From positions 1-62,305 of IMG/VR virus record IMGVR_UViG_3300020183_000076: a DNA stretch of 62,305 nucleotides; one strand, given 5' to 3'. Position 1 is the first letter of the stretch, and every line of letters starts with the position of its first letter. Source of the stretch: a virus. The notes beneath the pieces are model-generated. The model had not been told where the DNA came from. It made no database searches and worked only from the letters and a program-made list of their open reading frames with translations. Below are positions 1 through 11,983 of the stretch, in pieces. Position numbers and translations under genes: made by a program.

Positions 1-22
1 CTCCCCCTCGGGCGAGGGGGGG
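1..22 (+). terminator. GC-rich hairpin at left edge
   Basis: A C-rich arm pairs with a G-rich arm around a GGGC loop and is followed by AACCCCC. The same hairpin plus AACCCCC tail follows most genes of the array to the right, so this is probably the terminator of a preceding module cut by the window edge. There is no T-run. Confidence 0.5.
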
Positions 23-86
23 AACCCCCGCCGTTCTGACGGTGCTTCCTTATAGATTGAGTATACACAAGGATCACTTCACATCG

Positions 87-143
87 GTTGGTGTGCAAGT
101 TGGTTCACTGACTTAAACACCAACCTTGTTAGGTATGCCTAAC
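87..143 (+). repeat. Module A inverted repeats (IR1 + IR2)
   Basis: IR1 (87-124) has outer arms GTTGGTGT and ACACCAAC around an interior ending CACTGACTTAAAC. IR2 (128-143) is GTTAGGTATGCCTAAC. Both lie immediately upstream of the promoter block at 153. The arrangement recurs upstream of most genes in this array, which suggests protein operators or RNA/DNA hairpins. Confidence 0.85.
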
Positions 144-152
144 GGTCTCTTT

Positions 153-182
153 GAGTGCGTTTCTATGGCGATGTGCTATTGT
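153..182 (+). promoter_or_regulatory. Module A promoter block
   Basis: GAGTGCGTTT is followed, at a fixed distance, by an extended -10 TGCTATTGT (hexamer 177-182). The 30-nt spacing from GAGTGC to the end of TATTGT is identical in all seven copies. The start codon is about 45 nt downstream. Confidence 0.8.
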
Positions 183-226
183 AAGAGTGTCGGGAGAACC
201 CCAAGTACCTCGACGGAAAGGAAATC

Positions 227-622
227 ATGGGCGTCGTCATTGAGCCGGACTACCAGCGTCAACGCAGGGACAAGGTGATCGTGCCTTGCGAGTGCGGTGC
301 CTCCGTGGAGGTCAACTACGAAGACTGGTATGCAGACCAGTCGGCATGGTGCCAGTCAGGACAGCACTACTTCTACATCAGCGAGGACGAGTGGTACATC
401 AATCCGCATGGAGTGGAGTGGCATGAGGTCCACATCACGATGGGGCGCTGGGACTGGATTCACCGGGCAATGGGGCTCGGACCCGGCAGTTGGGTTGGGT
501 TCATGCACCCCGACATCCTCGGCGCTCTCCTGCCCCGTGCCAGCAGCGACCCGTTCTACGATGCTCTGATGAGTGTCGTGGACACCGCCCAGACTCTGAA
601 CGTCATGGTCAAGTGGTCCTGA
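227..622 (+). CDS. Early-region protein, unknown function
   Basis: A 131-residue protein I do not recognise. It has a CEC pair near residues 21-23 and another Cys near 42, so a small metal site is possible, and it is rich in Trp and Tyr. An AAAGGAAA ribosome site sits just upstream of ATG. Reading all codons, it contains no AAA, ATA or TTA, unlike the leftward genes. It has its own promoter module upstream and hairpin terminator downstream, so it is probably a monocistronic early gene. Confidence 0.75.
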   Translation: MGVVIEPDYQRQRRDKVIVPCECGASVEVNYEDWYADQSAWCQSGQHYFYISEDEWYINPHGVEWHEVHITMGRWDWIHRAMGLGPGSWVGFMHPDILGALLPRASSDPFYDALMSVVDTAQTLNVMVKWS

Positions 623-628
623 AAATCT

Positions 629-658
629 CCCCCCGCCCGAACCCCCTCGGGCGGGGGG
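629..658 (+). terminator. GC-rich hairpin terminator
   Basis: A perfect 12-bp stem of CCCCCCGCCCGA with its complement lies 7 nt after the stop codon. It is followed by AACCCCC rather than a T-run, as seen in some high-GC actinobacterial terminators. Confidence 0.7.
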
Positions 659-717
659 AACCCCCACCGATCTATACATACTGTCTGTGATATTTAATAC
701 GCAGTCTCTCTCTATCA

Positions 718-772
718 GCTGGCGTGCAAGTTGGTTCACTGACTTAAACGCCAGCGTATTAGGTATGCCTAA
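718..772 (+). repeat. Module B inverted repeats (IR1 + IR2)
   Basis: IR1 (718-755) has arms GCTGGCGT and ACGCCAGC; the interior is nearly identical to module A. IR2 (759-772) is TTAGG-TATG-CCTAA. Confidence 0.85.
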
Positions 773-783
773 CTGGTCTCTTT

Positions 784-813
784 GAGTGCGTTTTCGTGCT
801 CGTGTGCTATTGT
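784..813 (+). promoter_or_regulatory. Module B promoter block
   Basis: GAGTGCGTTT, then TGTGCTATTGT with the -10 hexamer at 808-813, in the same 30-nt frame as the other copies. Confidence 0.8.
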
Positions 814-854
814 AAGTCTGTCGGGGGGACGGTCCCCACGACGGAAAGGAAAGC

Positions 855-1166
855 ATGGGCAAGCGCTACAACTCAACGGCGGTCATGGAGGTGTTGGTGG
901 TGATCACCAGTAGGCTCTACTTCACCGGCACACCATTCTCGGAGGAGGACTTCGACGAGTGGCAGTCCCGCCTGCTCGGTCTCGTCCGCGAGATGAGCGA
1001 CCAACTGGACAAGGAGGATGTCGCGGACGCCATCAATGCCGAGATCGTCCTCAAGAACGGAATGCGGTCCTACGAGGACTTGCTGCACGAGTTCAGCGAG
1101 CTCGTCAGGACTGGCATTCCCACCTGGAGAGTCGGGCTGCGTCAGATGTCTCGCTCCCCCAACTGA
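855..1166 (+). CDS. Early-region protein, unknown function
   Basis: A 103-residue, mostly helical, acidic protein with no recognisable domain. ATG follows a GGAAAGGAAAGC ribosome site. Its codons are GC-ending and include no AAA, ATA or TTA. It is framed by its own promoter module and hairpin terminator, which supports a real single-gene transcription unit. Confidence 0.75.
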   Translation: MGKRYNSTAVMEVLVVITSRLYFTGTPFSEEDFDEWQSRLLGLVREMSDQLDKEDVADAINAEIVLKNGMRSYEDLLHEFSELVRTGIPTWRVGLRQMSRSPN

Positions 1167-1191
1167 CCGAATGAGCCATCACTCTCCCCCG

Positions 1192-1217
1192 CCCCCCTCG
1201 CCCTCGGGCGAGGGGGG
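1192..1217 (+). terminator. GC-rich hairpin terminator
   Basis: An 11-bp stem of CCCCCCTCGCC with its complement around a CTCG loop, followed by AACCCCC. Confidence 0.7.
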
Positions 1218-1277
1218 AACCCCCACCGGTTCAGGCAGACATCCATGTTGATTTAATATACGTTTTCTCCCTGTAAG

Positions 1278-1332
1278 CTGGTGTGCAAGTTGGTTTACAA
1301 ACTGAAACACCAGTTCGTTAGGGCAACCTAAC
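1278..1332 (+). repeat. Module C inverted repeats (IR1 + IR2)
   Basis: IR1 (1278-1313) has arms CTGGTGT and ACACCAG. IR2 (1317-1332) is GTTAGG-GCAA-CCTAAC. Confidence 0.85.
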
Positions 1333-1340
1333 ATGAAATT

Positions 1341-1370
1341 GAGTGCGTTTCCACGGTCTTATGCTATTGT
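1341..1370 (+). promoter_or_regulatory. Module C promoter block
   Basis: GAGTGCGTTT and TATGCTATTGT with conserved 30-nt spacing; -10 hexamer at 1365-1370. Confidence 0.8.
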
Positions 1371-1411
1371 AAGTGTGTCGGAGGGACGGTCTCTCCGACA
1401 GGAAGGAAACC

Positions 1412-1594
1412 ATGCCAATACAATTGACCTGTCCGTACTGCGACAGGACATTCACATACGACACCGTGACATTCATCGGTGCGAGCAAGAAGATGTCCAC
1501 GCACAAGGCTCGTTGCCCGAAGAAACGATACCTCGGCGGTGACTTGGAGATCGGAACAGCCGAGGATGCCCGTGAACTGCTGGAGGGGGAGTGA
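1412..1594 (+). CDS. C2HC zinc-finger microprotein
   Basis: A 60-residue protein with CPYC near residues 7-10 and H...RC near 31-35, a C2HC zinc-knuckle arrangement that suggests nucleic-acid or protein binding. The start is the ATG after GGAAGGAAACC; the longer upstream frame runs through the promoter leader and is rejected. It overlaps the next ORF by one base (TGATG), so the two are probably translated together from module C, the only two-gene module here. Confidence 0.8.
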   Translation: MPIQLTCPYCDRTFTYDTVTFIGASKKMSTHKARCPKKRYLGGDLEIGTAEDARELLEGE

Positions 1595-1824
1595 TGACCT
1601 ACGAAGACTTTGAGAGGCTCGTCCAGTCATCGTTCCCCAATGACGGCAACATCCGGTACGGACAGCATTGGTTCAACACCCTGTATTCGGTGAGGCCCGG
1701 GGTGGCTAACCTCATCAGGGGGACACTCCACGATCCTTTCCACCGAGAGAAGGTTTCAGAGCAGACGCAAGGCTATGCCCGTGCGCTCTGGAGCGACCTT
1801 CGTGCTCACGACACGGTGAACTGA
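1594..1824 (+). CDS. Early-region protein, unknown function
   Basis: A 76-residue protein with no recognised domain. ATG overlaps the upstream stop as TGATG, and a GGAGGGGGAG ribosome site lies inside the end of the zinc-finger gene, so translation is likely coupled. An in-frame GTG three bases earlier is the alternative start. A hairpin terminator follows directly. Confidence 0.7.
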   Translation: MTYEDFERLVQSSFPNDGNIRYGQHWFNTLYSVRPGVANLIRGTLHDPFHREKVSEQTQGYARALWSDLRAHDTVN

Positions 1825-1829
1825 ATCCT

Positions 1830-1851
1830 CCCCCCGCCCTCGGGCGGGGGG
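1830..1851 (+). terminator. GC-rich hairpin terminator
   Basis: A perfect 10-bp stem, CCCCCCGCCC against GGGCGGGGGG, with a two-base loop, followed by AACCCCC. Confidence 0.7.
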
Positions 1852-1916
1852 AACCCCCATCCGTTCAGACAGACATCTATACTTATTTAATATATATATC
1901 TCTCTGTCTACACGCA

Positions 1917-1972
1917 GCTGGCGTGCGGGTGAGTTTACAAACTTAAACGCCAGTCCGTTAGGTTAGCCTAAC
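1917..1972 (+). repeat. Module D inverted repeats (IR1 + IR2)
   Basis: IR1 (1917-1953) has arms CTGGCGT and ACGCCAG. IR2 (1957-1972) is the fully symmetric GTTAGG-TTAG-CCTAAC. Confidence 0.85.
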
Positions 1973-1981
1973 AGTCTCTTT

Positions 1982-2011
1982 GAGTGCGTTTCTGTGCTCG
2001 TGTGCTATTGT
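1982..2011 (+). promoter_or_regulatory. Module D promoter block
   Basis: GAGTGCGTTT and TGTGCTATTGT with conserved 30-nt spacing; -10 hexamer at 2006-2011. Confidence 0.8.
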
Positions 2012-2049
2012 AAAGATGTCGGGGAGACTCCCCGACGGAAAGGAAAGCA

Positions 2050-2226
2050 ATGAGTAACAGACTGAGAAACGTACTCGCTAGGGTGTATTGGTACCTAACG
2101 ACATTCAGGGCGCTGAAAGGATCGCACCAACCGTGTCGCCACTGCTACTTCCGTTGGCTGAACGAGAAGCGCAACCGTTGGTTGTGGTTGTGGTGCGACA
2201 ACGACTGCAACTGGGGCAACGAGTAG
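2050..2226 (+). CDS. Trp-rich C4-type microprotein
   Basis: A 58-residue basic protein with CRHC near residues 29-32 and a later Cys pair (CDNDC), a likely zinc ribbon, and a very Trp-rich tail (RWLWLW). ATG follows GGAAAGGAAAGCA in the same leader context as its neighbours. Frames of 71-82 residues overlap this stretch on both strands but lack the module-associated start, so this shorter ORF is preferred. Function unknown. Confidence 0.7.
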   Translation: MSNRLRNVLARVYWYLTTFRALKGSHQPCRHCYFRWLNEKRNRWLWLWCDNDCNWGNE

Positions 2227-2249
2227 CCCCAACACTCGGACCAAGATCT

Positions 2250-2286
2250 CCCCCCCTCGCCCCCCTCTCCCTCGGGCGAGGGGGGG
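2250..2286 (+). terminator. GC-rich hairpin terminator
   Basis: A 13-bp perfect stem (CCCCCCCTCGCCC with its complement) around an 11-nt pyrimidine loop, followed by AACCCCG. Confidence 0.7.
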
Positions 2287-2345
2287 AACCCCGACCGGTC
2301 TAGGCAGTCTGTCTATAATGTTTAATATACAGCCTTCCTTCATCA

Positions 2346-2401
2346 GCTGGCGTGCGAGTTAGTTCACTGACTTAAACGCCAGCCTGTTAGGGGCACCTAA
2401 C
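2346..2401 (+). repeat. Module E inverted repeats (IR1 + IR2)
   Basis: IR1 (2346-2383) has arms GCTGGCGT and ACGCCAGC. IR2 (2386-2401) is GTTAGG-GGCA-CCTAAC. Confidence 0.85.
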
Positions 2402-2410
2402 GGTCTCTTT

Positions 2411-2440
2411 GAGTGCGTTTCTGTGCCGGTGTGCTATTGT
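2411..2440 (+). promoter_or_regulatory. Module E promoter block
   Basis: GAGTGCGTTT and TGTGCTATTGT with conserved 30-nt spacing; -10 hexamer at 2435-2440. Confidence 0.8.
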
Positions 2441-2480
2441 AAGTGTGTCGGCGGGACGGTCCCGCCGACAGAAAGGCACC

Positions 2481-2816
2481 ATGAACAAGGTGAAAATCAA
2501 CGGGCGATGGGTGAGCGCAAGCAACCCTCCCACAATAAGCGAAGTGTGGCACCTAGTGCTACCGGCGAAGCACGATGCGATCCGGACACTTACCAACCTC
2601 ATCGCCGGACTGGAGACCCTGGTGGTGGCGTTGGAAGCCCTGCTCGCTGAACACCCATACGAGATCCAGGACCCCAGGACAGCCTTGCTATGGGAGAAGC
2701 ACCACGCCCGGATCACTCGGGAAATCGGCAAGAACCAACGAGAGCGGAACGCCGCCAAGTTGCGCTACCGGCAGATGGTCCAAGTGCTGGAGTGGTACGA
2801 CAACAGCGTGTCCTGA
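2481..2816 (+). CDS. Early-region helical protein, unknown function
   Basis: A 111-residue protein with long amphipathic helices; the C-terminal half is rich in Arg and Lys (RITREIGKNQRERNAAK) and could form a coiled coil or bind nucleic acid. ATG follows a GAAAGGCACC ribosome site at the usual distance from the module E promoter. The longer upstream frame includes promoter DNA and is rejected. Confidence 0.75.
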   Translation: MNKVKINGRWVSASNPPTISEVWHLVLPAKHDAIRTLTNLIAGLETLVVALEALLAEHPYEIQDPRTALLWEKHHARITREIGKNQRERNAAKLRYRQMVQVLEWYDNSVS

Positions 2817-2829
2817 ACACGCCCCCTGC

Positions 2830-2857
2830 CCCCCCCTCGCCTTCGGGCGAGGGGGGG
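2830..2857 (+). terminator. GC-rich hairpin terminator
   Basis: A 12-bp perfect stem closed by a TTCG tetraloop, followed by AACCCCC. Confidence 0.75.
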
Positions 2858-2920
2858 AACCCCCACCGATCCAGTCACATCAACACATTAAATTGAATAT
2901 ACGGTTTCTCTCACTTCATC

Positions 2921-2957
2921 AGCTGGCGTGCAGGTCGGCTTACTGACTTAAACGCCA
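2921..2957 (+). repeat. Module F: orphan IR1, no promoter or gene
   Basis: Arms AGCTGGCGT and ACGCCAACT with the usual interior. It is not followed by IR2, a promoter or an ORF; module G begins within about 50 nt. This looks like the remnant of a deleted module or an independent site. Confidence 0.7.
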
Positions 2958-3010
2958 ACTCATACAGACAGGCCAGACTCTTATATTTAATATACACTTT
3001 CTCCCTGTAA

Positions 3011-3067
3011 GCTGGTGTGTACGAGCTTTAGCGAAGTTAAACACCAGCTTTGTTAGGTTCACCTAAT
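3011..3067 (+). repeat. Module G inverted repeats (IR1 + IR2)
   Basis: IR1 (3011-3048) has arms GCTGGTGT and ACACCAGC, with a diverged interior built around AGCTTTAGC. IR2 (3052-3067) is GTTAGG-TTCA-CCTAAT. Confidence 0.85.
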
Positions 3068-3075
3068 AAAAAAAA

Positions 3076-3105
3076 GAGTGCGTTTTTGTGACGGTGTGCT
3101 ATTGT
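3076..3105 (+). promoter_or_regulatory. Module G promoter, leaderless
   Basis: GAGTGCGTTT and TGTGCTATTGT in the standard 30-nt frame; the upstream TT of other copies is replaced by AA. The -10 ends at 3105 and the ATG begins at 3112, where transcription would be expected to start. Confidence 0.8.
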
Positions 3106-3111
3106 AAGGGC

Positions 3112-3495
3112 ATGGCAAACAAGCCGGAGCCGACCGCTAAGGCGGAGGACAACAACAACAACCACAGCAAGCCGAGGAAGATCAACCTCTCCGAACTGAA
3201 AGGCACGGTGTCCCCACGGGGACGCAAGCCCTACACGGACGAGGCGTTGGTCCAGTACCTCACGGAGATGGTGCAGGACGGAGAGGGCTTCGGACTGGAC
3301 GCTCCCTACGAGGTCACCGACGACATGCGCAAGGGCACCCCACGGGGCGTGAAGGCGCAGAACCGCGAGCGTGCCAAGTGGCGCAACCGCATCGTGTCGG
3401 TGTGGACCTCCACGCTCGGCAGGGACAAGGGCGAGATCACCGTCGGGTGGACCTCGGAGCACGAGGTCACCGTCTCCCTCAGGAACAAGGCGTAG
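3112..3495 (+). CDS. Early paralogue pair member 1, basic protein
   Basis: A 127-residue basic protein clearly homologous to the next gene: both share a KINLS(E/D)LKG segment, RGRK, EGFG, a KWRNRIVS core and W(T)S/D-x-HE near the C terminus. No known domain recognised; the basic N terminus suggests nucleic-acid binding. Its ATG is 7 nt after the -10 hexamer, so the mRNA is probably leaderless, unlike the earlier modules. A double hairpin terminator follows. Confidence 0.8.
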   Translation: MANKPEPTAKAEDNNNNHSKPRKINLSELKGTVSPRGRKPYTDEALVQYLTEMVQDGEGFGLDAPYEVTDDMRKGTPRGVKAQNRERAKWRNRIVSVWTSTLGRDKGEITVGWTSEHEVTVSLRNKA

Positions 3496-3505
3496 AAAGG
3501 CGCTG

Positions 3506-3552
3506 AAAAACCGCAAGGTTTTTACCCTCCCCTTCGGGGGAGGTTTTTTTTT
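3506..3552 (+). terminator. Tandem terminator with U-tail
   Basis: A first hairpin AAAAACC-GCAA-GGTTTTT (3506-3523) is followed by CCTCCCC-TTCG-GGGGAGG (3526-3543) and nine T residues. This is a canonical intrinsic terminator. Confidence 0.9.
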
Positions 3553-3563
3553 GTCCAAAATCG

Positions 3564-3599
3564 TTGGCGTTCAAGATGCTGAAGCATCTTGAACGCCAA
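3564..3599. repeat. Stand-alone perfect IR1-like hairpin, copy 1
   Basis: A 16-bp perfect inverted repeat, TTGGCGTTCAAGATGC with its complement around TGAA. It lies in a 57-nt block (3544-3600) repeated without mismatch at 4153-4209. The outer bases match the IR1 arms. Confidence 0.9.
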
Positions 3600-3655
3600 T
3601 CCGTACAAGGCAACGCTCTCTTCCCTTGAATACATTTTCCTAACTTACTTGAGAA

Positions 3656-3712
3656 GCTGGTGTTCAATAGCTTTAGCTAAATTGAACACCAGCGATGTTA
3701 GGCTGACCTAAT
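3656..3712 (+). repeat. Module H inverted repeats (IR1 + IR2)
   Basis: IR1 (3656-3693) is a perfect 13-bp inverted repeat, GCTGGTGTTCAAT with its complement, around AGCTTTAGCTAA. IR2 (3697-3712) is GTTAGG-CTGA-CCTAAT. Confidence 0.9.
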
Positions 3713-3720
3713 AAGAAAAT

Positions 3721-3750
3721 GAGTGCGTTTTCGTGCCGGTGTGCTATTGT
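3721..3750 (+). promoter_or_regulatory. Module H promoter, leaderless
   Basis: GAGTGCGTTT and TGTGCTATTGT in the standard 30-nt frame. The -10 ends at 3750 and ATG begins at 3758, leaving essentially no 5' leader. Confidence 0.8.
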
Positions 3751-3757
3751 AGGAGTC

Positions 3758-4105
3758 ATGGCAACCAATGCCGGTGACCGCAATAGCGGAACCAACCCAA
3801 AGAAAATCAACCTGTCCGACCTGAAAGGTAAGACTTCCCAACGGGGGCGCAAGCGGTACGCAAACGCCACCCTCACGGAATACCTGAGGGAAATGGTGAG
3901 CACACGGGAAGGCTTCGGTGTTCCCGAACTCTTGACCGTGACTCCCAAGACAACGGAGAAGCAAATCCAGACCCAAAAAGCAAAGTGGCGCAACCGCATT
4001 GTGTCATTGTTTGAGGAACTGAACTTCCCGGGACACCGCATCAGTATTTCGTGGACGGACGCTCACGAAATGGTCGTGGAAATGGTTGAGACCACCGAAG
4101 GCTGA
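3758..4105 (+). CDS. Early paralogue pair member 2, basic protein
   Basis: A 115-residue homologue of the preceding gene with the same block order (KINLSDLKG, QRGRK, EGFG, KWRNRIVS, SWTDAHE). The ATG directly follows the -10 region; an AGGAG just before it is too close for a normal ribosome site, supporting leaderless translation. Codon use is less GC-biased than in the first genes (several AAA) but still lacks ATA and TTA. Last rightward gene of the window. Confidence 0.8.
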   Translation: MATNAGDRNSGTNPKKINLSDLKGKTSQRGRKRYANATLTEYLREMVSTREGFGVPELLTVTPKTTEKQIQTQKAKWRNRIVSLFEELNFPGHRISISWTDAHEMVVEMVETTEG

Positions 4106-4116
4106 GGAACCTTCAT

Positions 4117-4161
4117 AAAAAACGAAAGTTTTTTGACTCCGCTTCGGCGGAGTTTTTTTTT
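4117..4161 (+). terminator. Tandem terminator with U-tail
   Basis: AAAAAAC-GAAA-GTTTTTT (4117-4134) followed by ACTCCGC-TTCG-GCGGAGT (4136-4153) and a run of T. It closes the rightward early region. Confidence 0.9.
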
Positions 4162-4172
4162 GTCCAAAATCG

Positions 4173-4208
4173 TTGGCGTTCAAGATGCTGAAGCATCTTG
4201 AACGCCAA
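4173..4208. repeat. Stand-alone perfect IR1-like hairpin, copy 2
   Basis: Identical to the copy at 3564-3599 (16-bp stem, TGAA loop) and, like it, directly downstream of a U-tailed terminator. Confidence 0.9.
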
Positions 4209-4287
4209 TACTTTTATCCTTATATTCATACTAATTGAGTATACTTACTTGGCAAGGTTAGACCCTCCTTATATATTCTCTTTTTTT

Positions 4288-4331
4288 AATTGGTGGTCGT
4301 TTAAGAAATGCATTTCTTAAACACACCAATT
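4288..4331. repeat. AT-rich IR1-like inverted repeat
   Basis: AATTGGTG ... TTTAAGAAATGCATTTCTTAAA ... CACCAATT: the outer arms echo the TTGGTGT/ACACCAA arms of IR1, with a near-palindromic centre. Last recognisable member of the series. Confidence 0.75.
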
Positions 4332-4757
4332 AAATTAAATTTATTCTTTCCATTATGTTTAGTATTTTCTAATCGCATAGTCATCGCGTTGTCCTTTCAA
4401 TTGCATTTCCTAATTGATTTGCGGGTGCCAATGGCTCACCAGTTCCCTTGGTAAATTCCCTCCTAATAGCCTGGGTGAATAGGTCACTCAAACCCCCCCT
4501 CAATTTACTCAACAAGAATAAAATTCATGGATCTGGATATAGATAGGGTTAGGAGCATAGGAATAGTCTCTTCATATAGCCGCCTTCCCCAAATTCATAT
4601 TAAAAATCGGGTTAAAAGCCCTCTATTCAACCTATATAAGAGGTATAAGAATAAACTTAATGGAAAATAGGCAAAATTTTTTTGTTTTTAATTAAAAGTT
4701 GACTATTTTAATCAACTTTTATTAAGTTTTAGAATAAAATCAACCGCTTTTTGGCAC
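4332..4757. other. Gene-free convergent zone
   Basis: AT-rich DNA between the last rightward gene and the leftward terminator. I see no convincing ORF, tRNA or promoter here. It separates converging transcription units. Confidence 0.5.
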
Positions 4758-4806
4758 AAAAAAAAGCCTTAAAAATAAGATTTCTCTTACTTCTAAGGCT
4801 TTCTTT
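4758..4806 (-). terminator. Terminator of the leftward gene block
   Basis: Arms AAGCCTTA (4764-4771) and TAAGGCTT (4794-4801) with a second inner stem TAAG/CTTA. Read on the minus strand it ends in a run of eight T, so it terminates transcription arriving from 5 kb. Confidence 0.85.
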
Positions 4807-4940
4807 GCTTAATTACAATGGATTCGGGGGTACACCATAGTAATTAATAAATATTGACGCAAATTGTCGTGCGTGTCGTCTCTTTATAATACTTTTGAAG
4901 CATATATCTTTTAAATATTTGCTTCTTGTTTTAGGGCTTC

Positions 4941-5102
4941 CTAAGACTCCTGGAGATCTTCCTCTATATCTCTAAAGAACTCTTCATTAGCCCAATCCCA
5001 TTTTTCTTTTTCCCGCTCATACCAAACAACATAACAACCCCAGCACATTGGGTTTGCCATATCTGATATATCACAGCATAAATCTTGCTTATGATCTATC
5101 AT
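4941..5102 (-). CDS. Cys-containing small acidic protein
   Basis: A 53-residue ORF: CC near residues 9-10, CWGC near 20-23, then a Trp/Glu-rich helix. Possible metal-binding microprotein. Its ATG overlaps the upstream stop as ATGA, so it is probably translationally coupled. It is the last gene of the leftward block, before the terminator near 4.8 kb. Confidence 0.65.
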   Translation of the reverse strand: MIDHKQDLCCDISDMANPMCWGCYVVWYEREKEKWDWANEEFFRDIEEDLQES

Positions 5103-5305
5103 TCCTTGTCTTCCTTTAAATAAGGGAATTCGTATTCAAAATTGTCAATCACTTGGCGGATTACATCCAATTCCATTTCCAGCCATGTAACATCATTTTG
5201 ATCCATATAGGGAATGTCCTGAGAGATCTTATTATAATAGTATTTTAAAGCGGCCACCGTATATTTGACCTCTTTGCCACTATAAAAAGTAACGCTCCCG
5301 CTCAT
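5099..5305 (-). CDS. Hypothetical protein
   Basis: A 68-residue acidic protein starting MSGSVTF, chosen because AGAGGAAATT precedes that ATG; an upstream ATG 11 codons earlier lacks a clear ribosome site. No recognised domain; the C-terminal half looks helical. Confidence 0.65.
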   Translation of the reverse strand: MSGSVTFYSGKEVKYTVAALKYYYNKISQDIPYMDQNDVTWLEMELDVIRQVIDNFEYEFPYLKEDKE

Positions 5306-5324
5306 AATTTCCTCTTTTTTTCTA

Positions 5325-5435
5325 TTATTCACAGTCATGCCCGTATTGATATTCCTCTAAGGGAATATCCTTATTACACTCAGGGCAAGTAACAAGCCAA
5401 CCAATATTCTCTAGAATTTCTTCTTCCTCATCCAT
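5325..5435 (-). CDS. 36-residue zinc-ribbon-like microprotein
   Basis: An acidic N terminus is followed by TCPEC and a late H-x-x-C (GHDC), a CxxC...HxxC pattern. The start overlaps the upstream stop as TGATG. It resembles the many other tiny Cys-pair proteins in this block. Confidence 0.6.
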   Translation of the reverse strand: MDEEEEILENIGWLVTCPECNKDIPLEEYQYGHDCE

Positions 5436-5809
5436 CACGTAAGCCTGTAACTTCTATCTTTTGAATAGTTTCCATCACCGTCAAATACCATCATAGCAAG
5501 ATACTTTTCCCATTCCTCTGGAAAATAGGAATCATGAAGGAATTGCAAATCCCCAAGCATTTTAAAAGAAGTAGGACCCATGTCCCACTCAGGATTACTC
5601 TTCTGGATAGCTTCTACAATGTAATCTCTATCATAAGGCTCCCCCTCAAAAAATGCCCTGTAATTATTATCGTGTATAAGAACACCTACGGCACACTTTT
5701 TATTTTTGCTACCGCGATAACCGCACCCCCATTCATCATTCAGGCACTTTTCATTCTGCTGCAAGAGGTGATCTTTCACAATTTTAAAGATGTCTTGATC
5801 GTTCATCAT
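5435..5809 (-). CDS. Paralogue family A member (YRG/KCA-G protein)
   Basis: A 124-residue protein of unknown function. It shares with the genes at 8755 and 21739 an ordered motif set: C-x-YRG, N-x-KCA-x-G, an acidic middle, SNP-x-W, then L-x-x-LQ-x-LHDS. ATG-ATG start after GGAAAGAAAAC. A perfect palindrome (5821-5838) lies just upstream in the leader, so this and the following small genes may form a separately controlled group. Confidence 0.8.
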   Translation of the reverse strand: MMNDQDIFKIVKDHLLQQNEKCLNDEWGCGYRGSKNKKCAVGVLIHDNNYRAFFEGEPYDRDYIVEAIQKSNPEWDMGPTSFKMLGDLQFLHDSYFPEEWEKYLAMMVFDGDGNYSKDRSYRLT

Positions 5810-5820
5810 GTTTTCTTTCC

Positions 5821-5838
5821 GTGTACACAAGTGTACAC
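5821..5838 (-). promoter_or_regulatory. Palindromic operator candidate
   Basis: GTGTACAC-AA-GTGTACAC: each half is itself a palindrome, and the two form an 18-bp inverted repeat. It sits between a possible -10 (TACAAT on the minus strand near 5848) and the ribosome site of the gene below, a typical repressor position. Confidence 0.6.
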
Positions 5839-5886
5839 ATTTGATATATTGTACTTAGGATAATTGGTATTAAATATTAGGTTTAT

Positions 5887-5910
5887 TTTACAAGCCACCA
5901 AGCTTGTAAA
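5887..5910 (-). terminator. Intergenic hairpin
   Basis: TTTACAAGC and GCTTGTAAA form a 9-bp stem with a six-base loop between the gene ending at 5934 and the operator region. There is no T-run on the minus strand, so it may be a weak terminator or an mRNA end stabiliser. Confidence 0.4.
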
Positions 5911-5933
5911 TCTTAATTTCTTTTTTAAATAAC

Positions 5934-6194
5934 TTATAAAATTGGATAACCAGTGTTGTCATGGCAAGTATTAATATCGTTAAAGTTAATCTTTTTAACC
6001 AAGATTGCACCATCATCGTCCTCTATGTCAGAAATAAAAAGTTGTAAGGTATCAATAAAATCATCAAGATCACCCTCACGGAATGTACCGTTTGTTATGG
6101 CAAAATCATGCAATTTTTGGTCATTTGCAAAACAAGCCAAACCGACAATGATAGTCCCAATATTTTGTTTACTTAAAAAAATGTTGTCAATCAT
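5934..6194 (-). CDS. Hypothetical protein
   Basis: An 86-residue acidic protein with no recognised domain. ATG follows GGAGTAATTA and overlaps the stop of the preceding gene. The C-terminal part is rich in Asp. Confidence 0.65.
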   Translation of the reverse strand: MIDNIFLSKQNIGTIIVGLACFANDQKLHDFAITNGTFREGDLDDFIDTLQLFISDIEDDDGAILVKKINFNDINTCHDNTGYPIL

Positions 6195-6408
6195 TAATTA
6201 CTCCAAGTCTTGATGCTTTTTCGTATAAAAAATTGTATTTATTTCTAAAGTGTGTGATCTTTGCGCTAAAAAGATTGCGCTCTTCTTCGCTCAAAAGATT
6301 TATTGATTCCTCCAGGGTACTGTCTAGTTGTTTAAGACTAGCTTGAAAAAGCTTAAGTTGTTGTCTTGCCTCTGTTTTTAAATTTTCTTGAGCATCACCC
6401 TTCTCCAT
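6187..6408 (-). CDS. Small coiled-coil protein
   Basis: A 73-residue, strongly helical protein starting MEKGDAQ, rich in Leu, Gln, Glu and Lys with heptad-like spacing. The longer open frame upstream is out-of-frame overlap with the 6395-6664 gene, so the start inside that gene's last codons is preferred. Function unknown. Confidence 0.6.
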   Translation of the reverse strand: MEKGDAQENLKTEARQQLKLFQASLKQLDSTLEESINLLSEEERNLFSAKITHFRNKYNFLYEKASRLGVIND

Positions 6409-6664
6409 CAGCAAGCATTCCTTCCTCAAGAGGAGTAATACTGATAGCGTTTCCCGTTTTGGTAATTCCAAACAAAGAGCCTGGACCATTACCCTCAGGA
6501 TCACAAGAAGCATAAACTTTGCTACCATCACTAAATTCTAATACTGCTGTATTATTCCAACGAATATCATCCCAGCCTTCGTTTAGTGCTTCTTCTTCTG
6601 AAAGCCATCTCACATTCGTACACTTAAGGCCAACTGGATGCGCTACCTTTTTACTTTTCATCAT
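6395..6664 (-). CDS. Hypothetical protein
   Basis: An 89-residue protein of unknown function with a compact beta-rich look (W-N-N-T-A-V-L-E-F-S-D-G-S-K-V). Starts ATG-ATG after TTGAGTAAAAT; overlaps the next gene by 14 nt. Confidence 0.65.
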   Translation of the reverse strand: MMKSKKVAHPVGLKCTNVRWLSEEEALNEGWDDIRWNNTAVLEFSDGSKVYASCDPEGNGPGSLFGITKTGNAISITPLEEGMLADGEG

Positions 6665-6671
6665 ATTTTAC

Positions 6672-6842
6672 TCAATTCTTAAATGTTTCTTCAAATTTAT
6701 TTATTAAAACTTCTATTGTATTTCTTGCATTATCATTCTTAGACAACCAATAATCTAACAATTGGTCGTCAAGTATAAGATTATGCAACCCAGACAATAA
6801 AATCTTGACTTCTTCTTTGTTTAAATCAACAACACTTCTCAC
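6672..6842 (-). CDS. Small helical protein, GTG start
   Basis: A 56-residue ORF starting GTG, preceded by AAGGAATCTCT and overlapping the upstream stop as GTGA. Leu/Asn/Glu-rich and helical; no recognised domain. It fills what would otherwise be a gap in a gap-free block. Confidence 0.55.
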   Translation of the reverse strand: MRSVVDLNKEEVKILLSGLHNLILDDQLLDYWLSKNDNARNTIEVLINKFEETFKN

Positions 6843-7051
6843 AGAGATTCCTTTGGAATACAGCGCCTAGTGCAGTATCCCAAATTATTTTCTTCGTAAA
6901 AGATACCGCGAATAAAACTTTTGTTACACATTGCACAAACAAAAGGATTCGCCCCCTTAGACCCATAAAATAAAGCTGCCTTACCAAGCAACTTTGGTCC
7001 TTTATCCCTATTTTGTCCAGCAATGGGTTTTGCTGGCTTCTTACTAGCCAT
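6839..7051 (-). CDS. Zinc-finger-like basic protein
   Basis: A 70-residue protein: basic Lys/Pro N terminus, then VCAMCNKSF and, about 20 residues later, YCTRRC, a C2...C2 zinc-binding arrangement. AGAGGAAATAA precedes ATG. Nucleic-acid binding is plausible but not shown. Confidence 0.7.
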   Translation of the reverse strand: MASKKPAKPIAGQNRDKGPKLLGKAALFYGSKGANPFVCAMCNKSFIRGIFYEENNLGYCTRRCIPKESL

Positions 7052-7532
7052 TTATTTCCTCTTTCTTTTTAATTGATAGCAATGACTCTTCAAATTCATT
7101 AGAAAACTGCTTATGAAATTTTCCAAGATTTGCTGGGGTCAAGTGCTTTAGGTCTTCTATATTTTTCCAACTACGGATCATTGAATTTATCCAGTCTGTC
7201 TTTTTACGCTCGGAAGCGTTTGTTGTAAGACCAAGATGTTGCATAACAACTTCAGGTGTCAAATACACATAAACCAAATCTGAATCTTTCACTTTGTAAT
7301 AAAGATAAGTGTTTTCAAACTTTTCTAAAATCTTCCAACGAGCATAAAAATCTGCTGCAGTAGAAAACTTAATATTACCAATACAAACAGCCATACTGCC
7401 GAATACTAAAGATTTAGTTATAGCATTTAAATCTGAGTATTCTTCGGGTGTATCTTGATTGTAGATTGTGAACAATTCGTTGGGGTTATCGTTAAAATAT
7501 TTAACCCTTTCGGCATTCCAAACTAGCGGCAT
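7044..7532 (-). CDS. Conserved-type hypothetical protein
   Basis: A 162-residue mixed alpha/beta protein, no recognised domain, with a Lys/Glu-rich end overlapping the next gene by 8 nt. Good ribosome site (AGAAAGGAAAATCA). Confidence 0.7.
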   Translation of the reverse strand: MPLVWNAERVKYFNDNPNELFTIYNQDTPEEYSDLNAITKSLVFGSMAVCIGNIKFSTAADFYARWKILEKFENTYLYYKVKDSDLVYVYLTPEVVMQHLGLTTNASERKKTDWINSMIRSWKNIEDLKHLTPANLGKFHKQFSNEFEESLLSIKKKEEING

Positions 7533-7554
7533 TGATTTTCCTTTCTATTTTTAA

Positions 7555-7758
7555 TTATTCCTTGGGTTCTTCATAAAGGATATTATCAGAACGATACATT
7601 CTCTCAGCTGCGTCCATAACAGGCTTGTAATAATACCAAATTTCTTCGTCTCCATTTGCAACACTCGGAGGAATAAGACCTTCCTCGTACAAATCATCAT
7701 ATGCCATTTGTAGATAAAGCATTTGTGTTGCCTCGTCAGCATCGTCAAAGCGATTCAT
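7555..7758 (-). CDS. Small acidic protein
   Basis: A 67-residue, very acidic, Tyr-rich protein (theoretical DNA-mimic-like charge, inference only). AAGGAAACAAT precedes ATG. No recognised domain. Confidence 0.65.
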   Translation of the reverse strand: MNRFDDADEATQMLYLQMAYDDLYEEGLIPPSVANGDEEIWYYYKPVMDAAERMYRSDNILYEEPKE

Positions 7759-7767
7759 ATTGTTTCC

Positions 7768-8124
7768 TTACAGTTTTAATTTTTCTTTATATTGTAAAAT
7801 AAGTTGTATCAAAGTATTTGGAACAGAAGTATCATAACCCTCTTCATCAACATCACCAATAAAAACCACATCACCGGCAATATAATCCCCAAGAAGAATT
7901 TTTTCCCCTGAGTCATACCACAAAGCTGTTGCAATTTTATTTTCTGGCAAATCGATTAATTTACCCTCATCATTTATATATGCAACAAATCGGAGATTTC
8001 CAAAACGCACAACATCAAAGAATCCACCTACTGCTTCATTCATTTCCTGTGAAGTCCAAGTGCTTGTTATTTCTTCAATATCACCGCTTGCTGATACAGT
8101 GATTGCTTTTTTATTTATTAACAT
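7768..8124 (-). CDS. Hypothetical protein
   Basis: A 118-residue acidic, beta-rich protein of unknown function. The ribosome site is weak. Sits between small unknown genes of the same strand. Confidence 0.65.
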   Translation of the reverse strand: MLINKKAITVSASGDIEEITSTWTSQEMNEAVGGFFDVVRFGNLRFVAYINDEGKLIDLPENKIATALWYDSGEKILLGDYIAGDVVFIGDVDEEGYDTSVPNTLIQLILQYKEKLKL

Positions 8125-8130
8125 AGTTAA

Positions 8131-8544
8131 TTAGTACAACCCGTACTCTTCTCTTTCTTCTTCTGTGACTATAGTAACAGTGCTATTGCTTCCCATTGGA
8201 GCATCATGATGACTAAGAGAATAAGTGATTCTATCTTCTTCAATAAATCCCCGCATTATCCACTCGCTTTTGACACTCATTCCCCTGATCAAATCAATAG
8301 GTTTGCGTGCATGAACAAAACCACTATGATTTCCATCCCATAAACGCAAATTAGAGATTTTCCAAAAACCTGTCTCGTTTTTGTCAAAAAGTTGAGAAGT
8401 AATATCAGTAAAAGCAAATATTGCTTCTTCCCAGCAACCAAAACAATCTTCTGAAGGAACAGATTCGTCTGTTTCTTCATCAAATGTAGTACATGTACAT
8501 ACATTTGTAATCTCAAATGGAACTATTACGCTAAACATTGACAT
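8131..8544 (-). CDS. Hypothetical protein with Cys cluster
   Basis: A 137-residue protein. The N-terminal part carries CTC followed by CFGC near residues 17-40, possibly a metal site. I start it at MSMFSV because the preceding 17 codons overlap the neighbour and lack a ribosome site. Its first residues (FSVIV) resemble those of the neighbour at 8564 (FSIIV), hinting at relatedness. Confidence 0.6.
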   Translation of the reverse strand: MSMFSVIVPFEITNVCTCTTFDEETDESVPSEDCFGCWEEAIFAFTDITSQLFDKNETGFWKISNLRLWDGNHSGFVHARKPIDLIRGMSVKSEWIMRGFIEEDRITYSLSHHDAPMGSNSTVTIVTEEEREEYGLY

Positions 8545-8563
8545 ATCTAATAATCTTTCTTTT

Positions 8564-8749
8564 CTAATCGTCTTGAATTGTTCTATGATGCCCATTAATG
8601 GGAATTAAAGATGCAACTTCACCAGTACCAAGAATGTCTGAAAATTTCTTATTGCCGAGAGCTGCTTCGTAAACTTGATCTATAGCATCAGTTACATCTT
8701 TTCCAATAACAAAATAAGTTGCTGTAACTATTATGCTAAACTTTGGCAT
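8564..8749 (-). CDS. Hypothetical small protein
   Basis: A 61-residue protein starting MPKFSIIV; ribosome site AAAGGAAAGAG upstream. No recognised domain. Confidence 0.6.
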   Translation of the reverse strand: MPKFSIIVTATYFVIGKDVTDAIDQVYEAALGNKKFSDILGTGEVASLIPINGHHRTIQDD

Positions 8750-8754
8750 ATATG

Positions 8755-9315
8755 TTACTCTTTCCTTTCTAAAGTTTCATCTATTAATTCATTCAAAGTT
8801 TCATCATGGGCTACGACGAATGAACCATTATCATCAAATCTATCTTGCAGTGCAGCAAATTTCATTGGCCAATCTTCAACCTGATAGGTATCGTGAACAA
8901 GTTGCATTAACCTAAGAAACATTAAAGAGTTTCTACTAATTTTCCAATTAGGATTTGATTTCTGAATTACCTCAATAATTTCAACACTACCAACACTTTC
9001 TCCTTCTATTTCCTGGGTATAGTGAGTAGAATCAATAAGATGACCAATTGCACATTTCAAATTATAAGGAACGCTAAGGCACAAATCTCTGTAAATATCA
9101 GAGATTACTGCGTATTTTTCTTCCTCATCTGAATAAAAATGATCTTTTTCACATTGTTTCTCAGCTTCGTTATAACAATTTTCAAACACAGAATTGTTTC
9201 CACCTCTGTATCTGCATTCGCCATTTTCATCTGTTGACCTTGCGGCTTGCTCAGTCAAAGATTTAACTATGTGTTGATACGCATCTTTATCTGTTTCGAT
9301 ATGGTAATCTTTCAT
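8755..9315 (-). CDS. Paralogue family A member (large)
   Basis: A 186-residue member of the family seen at 5435 and 21739: YRG-G-N, KCAIG-x-L-I-D, SNP-x-W and Q-L-V-H-D-T in the same order, with about 35 extra residues after YRG. Start chosen at MKDYHIE, after AAGGAAAAC, because it aligns with the starts of both paralogues; an ATG ten codons earlier overlaps the upstream stop and is the alternative. Confidence 0.75.
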   Translation of the reverse strand: MKDYHIETDKDAYQHIVKSLTEQAARSTDENGECRYRGGNNSVFENCYNEAEKQCEKDHFYSDEEEKYAVISDIYRDLCLSVPYNLKCAIGHLIDSTHYTQEIEGESVGSVEIIEVIQKSNPNWKISRNSLMFLRLMQLVHDTYQVEDWPMKFAALQDRFDDNGSFVVAHDETLNELIDETLERKE

Positions 9316-9344
9316 GTTTTCCTTATAAGAATCTGTGCTTGACA

Positions 9345-9968
9345 TTATTCCTCGTCCGAAGCCTCATGTATTCTATTTAAAACAATTTCTCCGTTAACAA
9401 TTCTTCTCAATACATCTGCTACAACTTTGGGATGAATTGACCAAGTTGCGTTCAAAGTTGAATTAAAATTCAAACCATACTCAAGTTTAACCCGATCCCA
9501 AACGGAACGATCTGTACAATAGAATAAATCCTGTGCCTCTGCTTCAGCCAAACCAAGATAATCTTTAGCCCAATTTCTCATCCAGCCAGAGTTAATAATT
9601 GAATTAAGTTCTCCTAAATCATCAGCCAATGGTGCTTCTGCATAATAGTAACCATTCCATTTTGTGCGAGGCTCAACAATTTTATCTGTTGATTGTGAAA
9701 AATATGCATCAAGCAAAGCCCAACCTGCAAGGCAAGCAGTTGTGCCACAATTCAATTTTTCTAAATTAGCGTCACAAATTTCGTCTAAAGTATCAGCCAA
9801 TGATGCTTCTGCATAAATTTGATCAGCATTGATTGGAAATTCTTCTTGAAGTTCATATGTTTCGTCTTCTTCAAGAACTCTTCCAAACCAAGCACCCATG
9901 TGAAAATTTTCTGGGCTTGCGTTTTCAATTCTATTTGCTAATTGCAGCATTCTTTCTTTATTCATCAT
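9345..9968 (-). CDS. Paralogue family B member
   Basis: A 207-residue protein of unknown function, homologous to the gene at 21085. Shared elements: FHMG-x-WFGR near residue 25, C-x-TTAC-x-AGWA near 80-90, FC/YC-T/E before a W-D motif, and V-x-VLRRI-x-NG near the C terminus. The TTAC-AGWA centre suggests a conserved buried or catalytic Cys, unproven. Start after GAGGATA. Confidence 0.75.
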   Translation of the reverse strand: MMNKERMLQLANRIENASPENFHMGAWFGRVLEEDETYELQEEFPINADQIYAEASLADTLDEICDANLEKLNCGTTACLAGWALLDAYFSQSTDKIVEPRTKWNGYYYAEAPLADDLGELNSIINSGWMRNWAKDYLGLAEAEAQDLFYCTDRSVWDRVKLEYGLNFNSTLNATWSIHPKVVADVLRRIVNGEIVLNRIHEASDEE

Positions 9969-10131
9969 TATCCTCAATTTCTTCAATATCTGTGCTTCTA
10001 CCGGACCATTGAACTACTTTCATTATCAATGCCCAGTCTTCATTATCTATTTCTTCTTGTCTAAGAATTTGTGCTATCCAATCCATTGCCCCTTTGTCGT
10101 CTAAATTATCTGTACGATGAAACATTGCCAT
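9958..10131 (-). CDS. Small acidic protein
   Basis: A 57-residue Trp- and Asp/Glu-rich protein starting MAMFHRT after GGAAATCAT; it overlaps the next gene by 11 nt. No recognised domain. Confidence 0.6.
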   Translation of the reverse strand: MAMFHRTDNLDDKGAMDWIAQILRQEEIDNEDWALIMKVVQWSGRSTDIEEIEDNDE

Positions 10132-10139
10132 ATGATTTC

Positions 10140-10547
10140 CTATATCTGTCTTGTATCAAAAGTATTTGATAAGGAAAAATTTAAGGTGAATGTATATAAA
10201 CTGTCATCAATTGGTTTTTGACATTGAGTTATATTCAACCACCAACCTTTGTCTTGAACAGTAATTTGCGTACTATCAGGAAGATCTGCAATCACCTTTT
10301 TTAATTCTCCAACAGTGATTGTTGGACTATATCTAGTTATTCCACATATCCATTTTTCATAAAGATTGTTTTTCCATGTTAAAAACTCTTCAAACCATTC
10401 ATCATAGCTTATACCAAAAGGATATTTTTCAGATGTATCTAAGTTAGAATCAAAATCTAATTCTCCATAAGTTTTTAAAAGTTGCGATAAAGGATTTGTT
10501 AAATCCTCAACACATTGATAAAACTTTTTTTGTTTCTCTGTTGTCAT
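10140..10547 (-). CDS. Hypothetical protein
   Basis: A 135-residue protein: helical first half, then ITVGELKKVIADLPDS followed by beta-type sequence, a segment common in small phage proteins of unknown role. Ribosome site AGAAAGAGAAAA. Confidence 0.65.
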   Translation of the reverse strand: MTTEKQKKFYQCVEDLTNPLSQLLKTYGELDFDSNLDTSEKYPFGISYDEWFEEFLTWKNNLYEKWICGITRYSPTITVGELKKVIADLPDSTQITVQDKGWWLNITQCQKPIDDSLYTFTLNFSLSNTFDTRQI

Positions 10548-10565
10548 TTTTTCTCTTTCTGAAAT

Positions 10566-10853
10566 TTATTCAGTTGTGATTATTCCTGTCAGTTCGCTTA
10601 GCTTTTCAGTCCAATACCTACGAAATCCGTCAGGTACCGATTTGCTATAAAAACTTTGAGATGTAATATTGAAAAATGCGGTTAGCAATTTATTATAATT
10701 TATTTCATTCCATTCATATTGCTGAATCATTTCTACTGTTTGTTTAACCTGCTTCTCTCCATTTAGAAAAACACGATAGTCGTCGCTTTGATGATATTGC
10801 CAGTCTGTTTTGTTAATTATTATTGCTAACTCTATAATTTCTTCATTATTCAT
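10566..10853 (-). CDS. Hypothetical protein
   Basis: A 95-residue helical protein starting MNNEEII after an AAGGAGAGCAA ribosome site. The first gene downstream of the tRNA-like element at 10871. No recognised domain. Confidence 0.65.
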   Translation of the reverse strand: MNNEEIIELAIIINKTDWQYHQSDDYRVFLNGEKQVKQTVEMIQQYEWNEINYNKLLTAFFNITSQSFYSKSVPDGFRRYWTEKLSELTGIITTE

Positions 10854-10870
10854 TTGCTCTCCTTGTTTAG

Positions 10871-10984
10871 TGGGAATGGTGAGAGTCGAACTCACTATAC
10901 AGTCTTTAGACTAACAGTTATCAACTTACCCTAGACAACAAAAGAAGACTGATAGTCGTACTATATACTCCGGCATACATTCCC
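10871..10984 (-). ncRNA. tRNA-like RNA, 114 nt
   Basis: On the minus strand the 5' end GGGAATG pairs perfectly with the 3' end CATTCCC-A, and a textbook T arm (GTGAG-TTCGACT-CTCAC) precedes the 3' acceptor strand. The centre does not fold as a normal D arm plus anticodon arm: it contains AGTC-TAAA-GACT and ATAGT-ACG-ACTAT hairpins. It could be a class II tRNA with an insertion, a degenerate tRNA or a tRNA mimic. No anticodon can be assigned. Confidence 0.5.
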
Positions 10985-11086
10985 GTGGTGCATATTAATT
11001 AGACTTTGCTCATACATATGCAAGATATGAGATAACCTCAACCGGTAAGGTTTATTAATTAACAGGCTCTAATCAAACCTGTATCA
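10985..11086 (-). ncRNA. Structured leader upstream of the tRNA-like RNA
   Basis: No ORF. Minus-strand hairpins include ACAGG/CCTGT, AACCT/AGGTT and CTCATA/TATGAG in succession, leading into the tRNA-like element. It may be part of one longer RNA. Confidence 0.35.
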
Positions 11087-11788: not shown

Positions 11789-11831
11789 TTTTCGCTCCTT
11801 AAAACTATTGGTTTTACGGAACATTAATATA

Positions 11832-11938: not shown

Positions 11939-11983
11939 ATCACCTCCAAATACATAATTATAATTATATCAGATCTTAACTGG

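Follow-up and report, generated by a model that had tools for sequence, protein, structure and literature searches.

What does a repeated, almost unvarying control block do in front of each module of a short viral gene row? The question is raised by the virus record IMGVR_UViG_3300020183_000076, whose whole length of 62,305 bases is called the window here. In its first 4.3 kb, seven modules of small rightward genes each carry a promoter preceded by a long inverted repeat (IR1) and a shorter one (IR2). An original prediction, made from the letters alone, had described this row as a co-regulated early or host-takeover array of an actinophage. The explanation that we favour, with moderate confidence, is that the array would be an early host-takeover block in which one DNA-bound regulator acts through an operator common to the promoters, and that it probably lies in or near a terminal repeat; the proposed carrier is a large tailed actinophage. 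Comparison with other phages supports the co-regulated array and, by synteny, its early position.

The modules, numbered W1 to W7, share one order: a terminator-like hairpin, a short AT-rich box, IR1, 25-26 nt, the box TTGAGTGCGTTT, the -10 element TATTGT and a gene. Reduced to its common form, the control block consists of IR1, about 26 nt, the box TTGAGTGCG and then TATTGT, and in the lineage of the window the 25-26 nt between IR1 and the box contain IR2. Measured from the last CC of the IR1 arm, the box lies 27-29 nt downstream. The promoter pattern GAGTGCGTTT-N11-TGCTATTGTA has seven exact matches in the 62,305-base record, all on the + strand (starts at 153, 784, 1341, 1982, 2411, 3076 and 3721), and its reversed control pattern has none. 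This agrees with the predicted seven promoters in an invariant frame. The box begins with TTGAGT in five copies, with AAGAGT in W6 and with ATGAGT in W7; TATTGT begins 20 nt after the TTGAGT position in all seven and is preceded by the TGC of an extended -10. A model of the control block scored the seven blocks at 97-127 bits and nothing outside the array above 18.4 bits. Of the matches to a box matrix built from all kept boxes, 10 fell within the 4.4-kb array, every one on the + strand; the remaining 58 kb, with both strands counted, gave 8, where shuffles give 9-13. The box is array-specific within the window, with no excess of this promoter class elsewhere.

Each module holds one gene, except for the third, which has two. 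Five start codons lie 38-44 nt past the -10, with a Shine-Dalgarno-like AAGG and a fold-back seen by eye, whereas in W6 and W7 the distance is 6 and 7 nt, resembling leaderless mRNAs; the short distance in these two genes fits a start point about 7 nt after the -10. The 5' leaders of the five modules open with a hairpin (GTCGG...CCGAC) whose stem letters change in step between modules, as judged by eye (183-226, the least clear, 814-854, 1371-1411, 2012-2049 and 2441-2480). The one or two small genes per module had been predicted correctly; the hairpin terminators were borne out in part, since by eye six of the eight lack a T-run and the last two have one. The features of the array are as follows, with the count in 20,000 shuffles given where available.

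86..125, + strand: IR1 of W1 (15/19 symmetric pairs; 0/20,000 shuffles)
129..142, + strand: IR2 of W1, TTAGGTATGCCTAA (pattern match)
151..182, + strand: promoter of W1, box TTGAGTGCGTTT and extended -10 TGCTATTGT
227..622, + strand: small gene of W1, 131 amino acids, no family match
632..665, + strand: terminator-like GC hairpin without T-run (by eye)
718..755, + strand: IR1 of W2 (14/18 pairs; 0/20,000 shuffles)
759..772, + strand: IR2 of W2
782..813, + strand: promoter of W2
855..1166, + strand: small gene of W2, 103 amino acids
1278..1313, + strand: IR1 of W3 (13/17 pairs; 1/20,000 shuffles)
1318..1331, + strand: IR2 of W3
1339..1370, + strand: promoter of W3
1412..1594, + strand: first small gene of W3 (W3a), 60 amino acids, zinc-finger-like, with sub-threshold Pfam matches only
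1594..1824, + strand: second small gene of W3 (W3b), 76 amino acids
1918..1953, + strand: IR1 of W4 (11/17 pairs; 13/20,000 shuffles)
1958..1971, + strand: IR2 of W4
1980..2011, + strand: promoter of W4
2050..2226, + strand: small gene of W4, 58 amino acids
2346..2383, + strand: IR1 of W5 (14/18 pairs; 0/20,000 shuffles)
2387..2400, + strand: IR2 of W5
2409..2440, + strand: promoter of W5
2481..2816, + strand: small gene of W5, 111 amino acids
2922..2959, + strand: IR1-type palindrome without IR2 or -10, box TTTAATATAC downstream (34-nt core: 25/20,000 shuffles)
3011..3048, + strand: IR1 of W6 (11/18 pairs; 37/20,000 shuffles)
3053..3066, + strand: IR2 of W6
3076..3105, + strand: promoter of W6, start codon 6 nt past the -10
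3112..3495, + strand: leaderless-looking gene of W6, 127 amino acids, conserved array family F0
3525..3552, + strand: terminator hairpin with T9
3564..3599, + strand: a-type palindrome with 17 perfect pairs and no -10, box TTGAATACATTTTCCTAA at 3626
3656..3693, + strand: IR1 of W7 (13/18 pairs; 0/20,000 shuffles)
3698..3711, + strand: IR2 of W7
3719..3750, + strand: promoter of W7, start codon 7 nt past the -10
3758..4105, + strand: leaderless-looking gene of W7, 115 amino acids, family F0
4136..4161, + strand: terminator hairpin with T9
4173..4208, + strand: perfect a-type palindrome, second copy, box TTGAGTATAC at 4235
4290..4329, + strand: AT-rich palindrome at the array end (by eye; similar end units in relatives), at this cut pairing no better than shuffles (1,454/20,000)

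An IR1 stands before every promoter, as had been claimed, but its length is 36-40 nt rather than a constant 38 nt and its inner part is imperfect. The extent assigned to the array, 1-4331, missed two things: the four promoterless IR1-type palindromes of the window (2922-2959, 3564-3599, 4173-4208 and 4290-4329) and a continuation to the left. Three other virus records (G001, G002 and G003) represent the same population, with shared parts 99.7-99.9% identical, and their copies hold nine modules, the array continuing leftward beyond the seven of the window; in G003 it begins directly after rightward AT-rich genes. In the longer copy, 92.1% of the IR1 cells pair across its nine modules. Two-sided changes occurred in 10 cells compared with 3.2 in shuffles, where none of 500 reached that number, and at most 5 were seen in slid versions; counted by pairs with a two-sided change, the difference was 4 against 2.2, which 34 of 500 shuffles reached. 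The compensation in IR1 is real but modest. IR2 shows none, because it never varies. Its pattern TTAGGN4CCTAA occurs eight times in the window compared with 0.02 expected, seven times in the array, one before each promoter as foreseen, and once at 4931-4944, where it stands outside the array in AT-rich DNA without a promoter block. A chance or compositional artefact is ruled out by the exact repeat counts, the shuffles and the covariation. The IR2 of W4, TTAGGTTAGCCTAAC, resembles the DtxR/IdeR iron box, but an iron box was dropped as a candidate since the centre varies freely in the other copies.

How far the block extends beyond this population was assessed in 50 of 80 relatives found through the DnaB-like helicase, although many of the records may not cover the array site. 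The exact window promoter was absent from all 50, at up to 3 mismatches, which rules it out as a family-wide signature. A covariance model was built from the nine control blocks and run on 31 of the 50 records, of which 11 matched at E <=1. The matches included seven in G020 (six at 2e-5 or better), four in G025, one in G048 and one weak match in G047, and full arrays were present in all four on reading. A search with F0, the protein family encoded at the distal end, yielded eight more arrays (L149 is not counted, being taken as a duplicate of L150), giving 13 in total, 12 beyond the window. Two routes, by control block and by protein, led to the same array anatomy. The promoters differ among these phages (TTGAGTACACATTTCC..TAAGGT, TTGAATACATATTC..TATTAT, TTTAGTGCAT..TATAGT and others) while the geometry is kept. 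IR2 has no copy in the 12 other arrays; it is ruled out as a general element and belongs to the window lineage only. Of the two repeats proposed as regulator sites, IR1 is the conserved one, and of the proposed IR1-IR2-promoter spacing it is the distance from palindrome to box that is kept in the 13 arrays, whereas IR2 and the exact promoter are lineage-specific. Short matches to the control-block model (41 nt, about 18 bits) in G005-G008, and a similar one at window position 55717, were considered noise. A single promoter match in a Treponema genome, without IR2 and with no palindrome seen in the preceding 120 nt, was taken as chance. By eye, four phages show a similar AT-rich element, AAAATTGAGTACATAT...GTTACT, at the start of the array (L023 17560-17620 and the starts of L131, L132 and L133).

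The spacing was measured on 128 palindromes found by script in the 13 arrays and left unfiltered. The finder requires GG-G and C-CC near the ends, so that the outer letters are selected rather than found; in the longer copy it missed the IR1 of modules 2, 3 (W1) and 8 (W6) and picked up three palindromes within genes. With this set, the best box lay 24-28 nt downstream in 107 of the 128; shuffled flanks gave 9.4%, and the upstream side 8 of 128. From the palindrome core, that is, the last CC of the arm, the box was 28-30 nt away in 99 of the 128 and exactly 29 nt away in 62.

Cultivated phages bear on the probable position of the array in its genome. The terminase and the helicase of the window are 42% and 35% identical to their top matches, which are in Stanwilliamsviridae Streptomyces phages (Coruscant in the case of the terminase), in keeping with the actinophage that had been guessed. 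Within this group, phages of cluster BE1 have terminal repeats of about 11 kb, and their announcement mentions these repeats and an lsr2-like gene, with no promoters or palindromes (PMC5764925). In Coruscant the palindrome GGCGCCCGGCGCC (<=2 mismatches) occurs 16 times in 820-11225, 16 times in the second copy at 122273-132678 and nowhere else in 133,697 bases; 12 of the 16 copies are separated from the -10 by exactly 46 nt. In Tomas the palindrome GACCGGCCCGGTC is found only within 792-12014 and 122499-133721. In the window the units are confined to the array; in Coruscant and Tomas the palindromes are confined to the direct terminal repeat. This repeat, too, is a one-direction row of small genes with a phage-specific palindrome, and in Coruscant this palindrome also stands at a set distance before the -10. 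We propose to group such layouts as palindrome-promoter arrays of terminal repeats; one of their marks, a constant distance from palindrome to -10, is seen in the window-type arrays and in Coruscant. In contrast to the window array, the palindromes of these two phages have 13 bp, the promoters of Coruscant read TTGnnn-17-TAAGCT by eye, and the repeats encode an Lsr2-like protein, while F0 was not found in the Coruscant stretches read. NootNoot has one weakly repeated 11-mer (4 copies) and no Tomas palindrome, and Comrade has one match of the Tomas type. In G003 as in Coruscant, a thymidylate synthase gene lies beside the array, and on the same side. From this flank and the comparable layout of the two terminal repeats we infer that the window array may be an early terminal-repeat block. 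Many palindromes of Coruscant (L153 820-11225) and Tomas (L155 792-12000) precede the promoter of a small gene.

According to the explanation that we favour, each gene would have its own promoter and the same upstream operator, so that one regulator could switch all of them together, presumably early in infection. Since the site is palindromic, the regulator would be dimeric. Bound to DNA at a set distance upstream, with about 52 nt between the end of the palindrome and the -10 (46 nt in Coruscant), it might touch RNA polymerase in the manner of a class I activator, or else hold the promoters off later; of the two, activation appears the likelier. The box TTKARTACA, at about -38 to -21, would replace the normal -35 and be read by the same machinery.

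Several observations weigh against this explanation. For a housekeeping sigma factor, whose promoters have a TTGACA-like -35 at 16-19 nt before the -10, the 20 nt that follow TTGAGT make a long spacer, and two of the boxes begin with AAGAGT and ATGAGT; at the same time, sigma region 2 (PF04542 only) gave no match above the cut-off in 8 records. The terminal-repeat position in the window phage would follow from synteny only, and the spacing in Tomas is loose (18-55 nt, with 41-49 nt in 9 of 16). The box consensus was derived from the same arrays that were used for testing, and the distance of 50-54 nt from palindrome to -10 comes from 59 units called with a -10 that had been kept by their box spacing. 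In addition, there are two kinds of unit: gene-bearing b-units, and a-units, which consist of the palindrome and the box at the same distance with no -10 and lie mostly just past terminators or at the array end. Units without a -10 make up 28 of 102 by a looser test and 46 of 105 by a strict one, which implies that the palindrome-box unit is not solely a part of a promoter. Set against the b centres of their own phage, the centres of a-units come nearer to the reverse complement in 20 of 24 cases, with four AT-rich a-units outside this comparison, whereas 65 of 74 b-units match other b-units as read. Inverted centres would not be expected of a symmetric dimer site, and the palindrome may have a direction. 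Non-Watson-Crick arm pairs are G-T in 110 cases and A-C in 26, and among 101 unique elements RNA folding is better for the + strand in 72 and for the other strand in 24. The counts of wobble pairs, box-matrix matches and inner folds refer to 105 units kept by spacing and box score; the 23 of 128 that were dropped include real ones (G020 3367 and 5816, L143 7116). The centre comparison used 102 units, these 105 minus three, with two L142 b-units assigned by hand; G020 7580, G025 6966 and L147 7050 were counted as b but look a-type, and window 2924 was counted as a but looks b-type.

These asymmetries are the ground for the rival that survives best, namely that the palindrome is a single-strand hairpin, of RNA or DNA, on read-through transcripts from upstream, serving in processing, antitermination or as a protein-binding RNA. 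The excess of G-T over A-C, the more stable + strand and the strand-oriented centres (b GCTTCAGC with a GCTGAAGC; b GCGATTAGC with a GCTAATCGC), with the agreement among b-units as read and of a-units in reverse complement, all speak for it. So do the inner parts: folded alone, they favour the + strand over the - strand by 36:8 in b-units and the - strand by 22:9 in a-units. However, a hairpin accounts poorly for the set distance to a DNA promoter element and for the place of the palindrome, which follows a terminator and precedes the promoter. Most of the surplus of wobble pairs falls on arm positions 5, 6, 8 and 9, at which the left arm has relaxed while the right one stays conserved; this by itself can generate such a surplus. 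The arm pair counts of a-units do not mirror those of b-units. A DNA site is preferred because of the set spacing to the promoter, the concentration of wobble at few arm positions and the opposed inner parts, and we regard the hairpin as unlikely.

The genes of the arrays turn over rapidly. Among 101 module genes called in the 13 arrays, by a crude procedure that took the longest open reading frame after a promoter match and gave L142 only one, 30 belong to F0 and 47 have no relative at all (BLASTP E <=1e-4); of the 71 outside F0, 51 lack a relative in another array. Two or three module genes are joined in each of eleven small families, two of which lie within one array. Between G025 and L147 the flanks are 87-90% identical while the genes of the left array part differ, and L147 has one F0-like module that is absent from G025, the alignment breaking in the control block and a short way into the gene that follows. 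Variable module genes, a gain or loss with a break in the control block and the oriented centres could suggest an integron-like cassette platform, in which the palindromes are recombination sites and a recombinase inserts or removes modules. We find this improbable: a recombination site has no use for the coupling of box and -10, integron cassettes are promoterless whereas every window module has its own promoter block, and homologous recombination between similar blocks explains the turnover. Under a shared operator, similar repeated control blocks would permit the gain and loss of single gene modules, and hence the variable gene content.

Slightly more improbable still is that the units serve replication, injection arrest or packaging at the genome end, with the promoters as incidental neighbours. 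The units without a -10, the AT-rich units at the array end and the location of the Coruscant and Tomas palindromes in terminal repeats would fit such a role, but every gene-bearing module of the window, seven in all, has a unit, and 12 of the 16 Coruscant copies keep the same palindrome-to--10 distance. A GC-rich foreign insert or chimeric assembly with ordinary, functionless repeats, which the composition might suggest (GC about 56% in the array and 33-42% in the mostly leftward-reading remainder of the window; third-position GC 0.67-0.91 in 8 array genes within 1-4200 and 0.26-0.39 in 13 genes within 4500-62305), is already contradicted by the covariation and conserved spacing, by the arrays of other virus records, which are likewise GC-richer than their own flanks, and by the three records of the same population, which at 99.7-99.9% identity carry the same DNA across the junctions and thereby exclude an end-of-contig or chimera effect.

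F0 is the constant element among the genes. By profile it occurs in all 13 arrays, in 2-4 copies at or towards the distal end, partly by construction since eight arrays were fetched through it; the four arrays reached by control block (G020, G025, G047 and G048) all carry it as well. The two F0 proteins of the window (3112-3495 and 3758-4105) show an RGR/RGK motif. No convincing relative was found in Pfam, PHROGs, the PDB or the phage records searched: the best values among 13 members were E 0.0096 in Pfam and E 0.038 in PHROGs, each in one member, the PDB gave one match by sequence (E 1.1), and two members had no match in 50,697 phage records. An AlphaFold model (mean pLDDT 76.6, pTM 0.59) predicts an alpha-beta fold at modest confidence. 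Its PDB matches reach Z <=6.7 and are spread over Stn1, SpoVS, IF3-C, R3H and others, and against BFVD the model had no match at E 0.001 or better. The predicted fold has an unspecific likeness to several nucleic-acid-binding domains, and because the structure matches are so spread, no function is assigned to F0.

A bolder idea, which we put forward tentatively and hold to be possible though doubtful, is that the oriented palindrome and the box form a plug-in switch read by a phage-coded or virion-delivered factor, with F0 as part of the system, perhaps as the regulator or a nucleoid-like partner. A small anti-host or anti-defence gene landing behind such a switch would become an early gene, and the sequence of the switch would diverge with its factor between phages while the geometry is kept. 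As the geometry persists despite divergence, the palindrome could serve to trace takeover arrays in the terminal repeats of actinophages that have not been cultivated. If the explanation by a shared operator is true, a phage-specific palindrome at a set promoter distance marks the early block in a group of actinophages that includes many uncultivated ones. It would then allow candidate host-takeover and anti-defence genes without database relatives to be listed directly, and it suggests a way for gene blocks to change content under one control. Which protein binds the palindrome, and whether it turns the block on or off, is a question testable in the cultivated Streptomyces phages.

Among known systems, the T4 middle promoters combine a MotA box, centred near -30 and replacing the -35, with a good extended -10. 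The window promoters resemble them in having a box in place of the -35 and a good -10, and differ in sequence and in the upstream palindrome, for which no counterpart is known there. In T5 and SPO1, early host-takeover genes with repeated promoters lie in the terminal repeats, and we know of no palindrome-box unit in either phage. The BE1 repeats have been compared with those of T5 and SPO1 (PMC5764925), terminal repeats of about 10-13 kb being a common trait. The nearest described feature found is the ESAS of cluster K mycobacteriophages. These are inverted repeats of no known function before many small non-structural genes, with a consensus that differs between phage groups (PMC3203893). IR1 likewise precedes many small actinophage genes with a group-specific consensus. 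An ESAS is tied to a 13-bp motif at the start codon, the SAS, directly upstream of which lie imperfect 17-bp inverted repeats separated by a 4-13 bp spacer, whereas IR1 is tied to the promoter: it is a 36-40 nt palindrome with a short centre, about 26 nt before the promoter box. From its end to the start codon there are 96-101 nt in five modules and 63-64 nt in the other two. The SAS GGGATAGGAGCCC has no match at <=2 mismatches in the window, and IR1 thus differs from ESAS on two defining points. No description of these units was found in the literature searched. The view that they had no described equivalent stands to that extent and is qualified by the comparable layouts in sequenced Streptomyces phages and by the partial similarity of ESAS. 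The class, repeated and commonly controlled early phage promoters, is an already known kind, and the variant is undescribed in our searches.

Two further observations concern other stretches. The window also encodes a C-5 cytosine DNA methyltransferase (34715-36037) and a DUF6551/ParB-like protein (18525-19442). Between two modules of the G020 array (L131 2727-2768) stand about 24 consecutive C and then a G-rich stretch.

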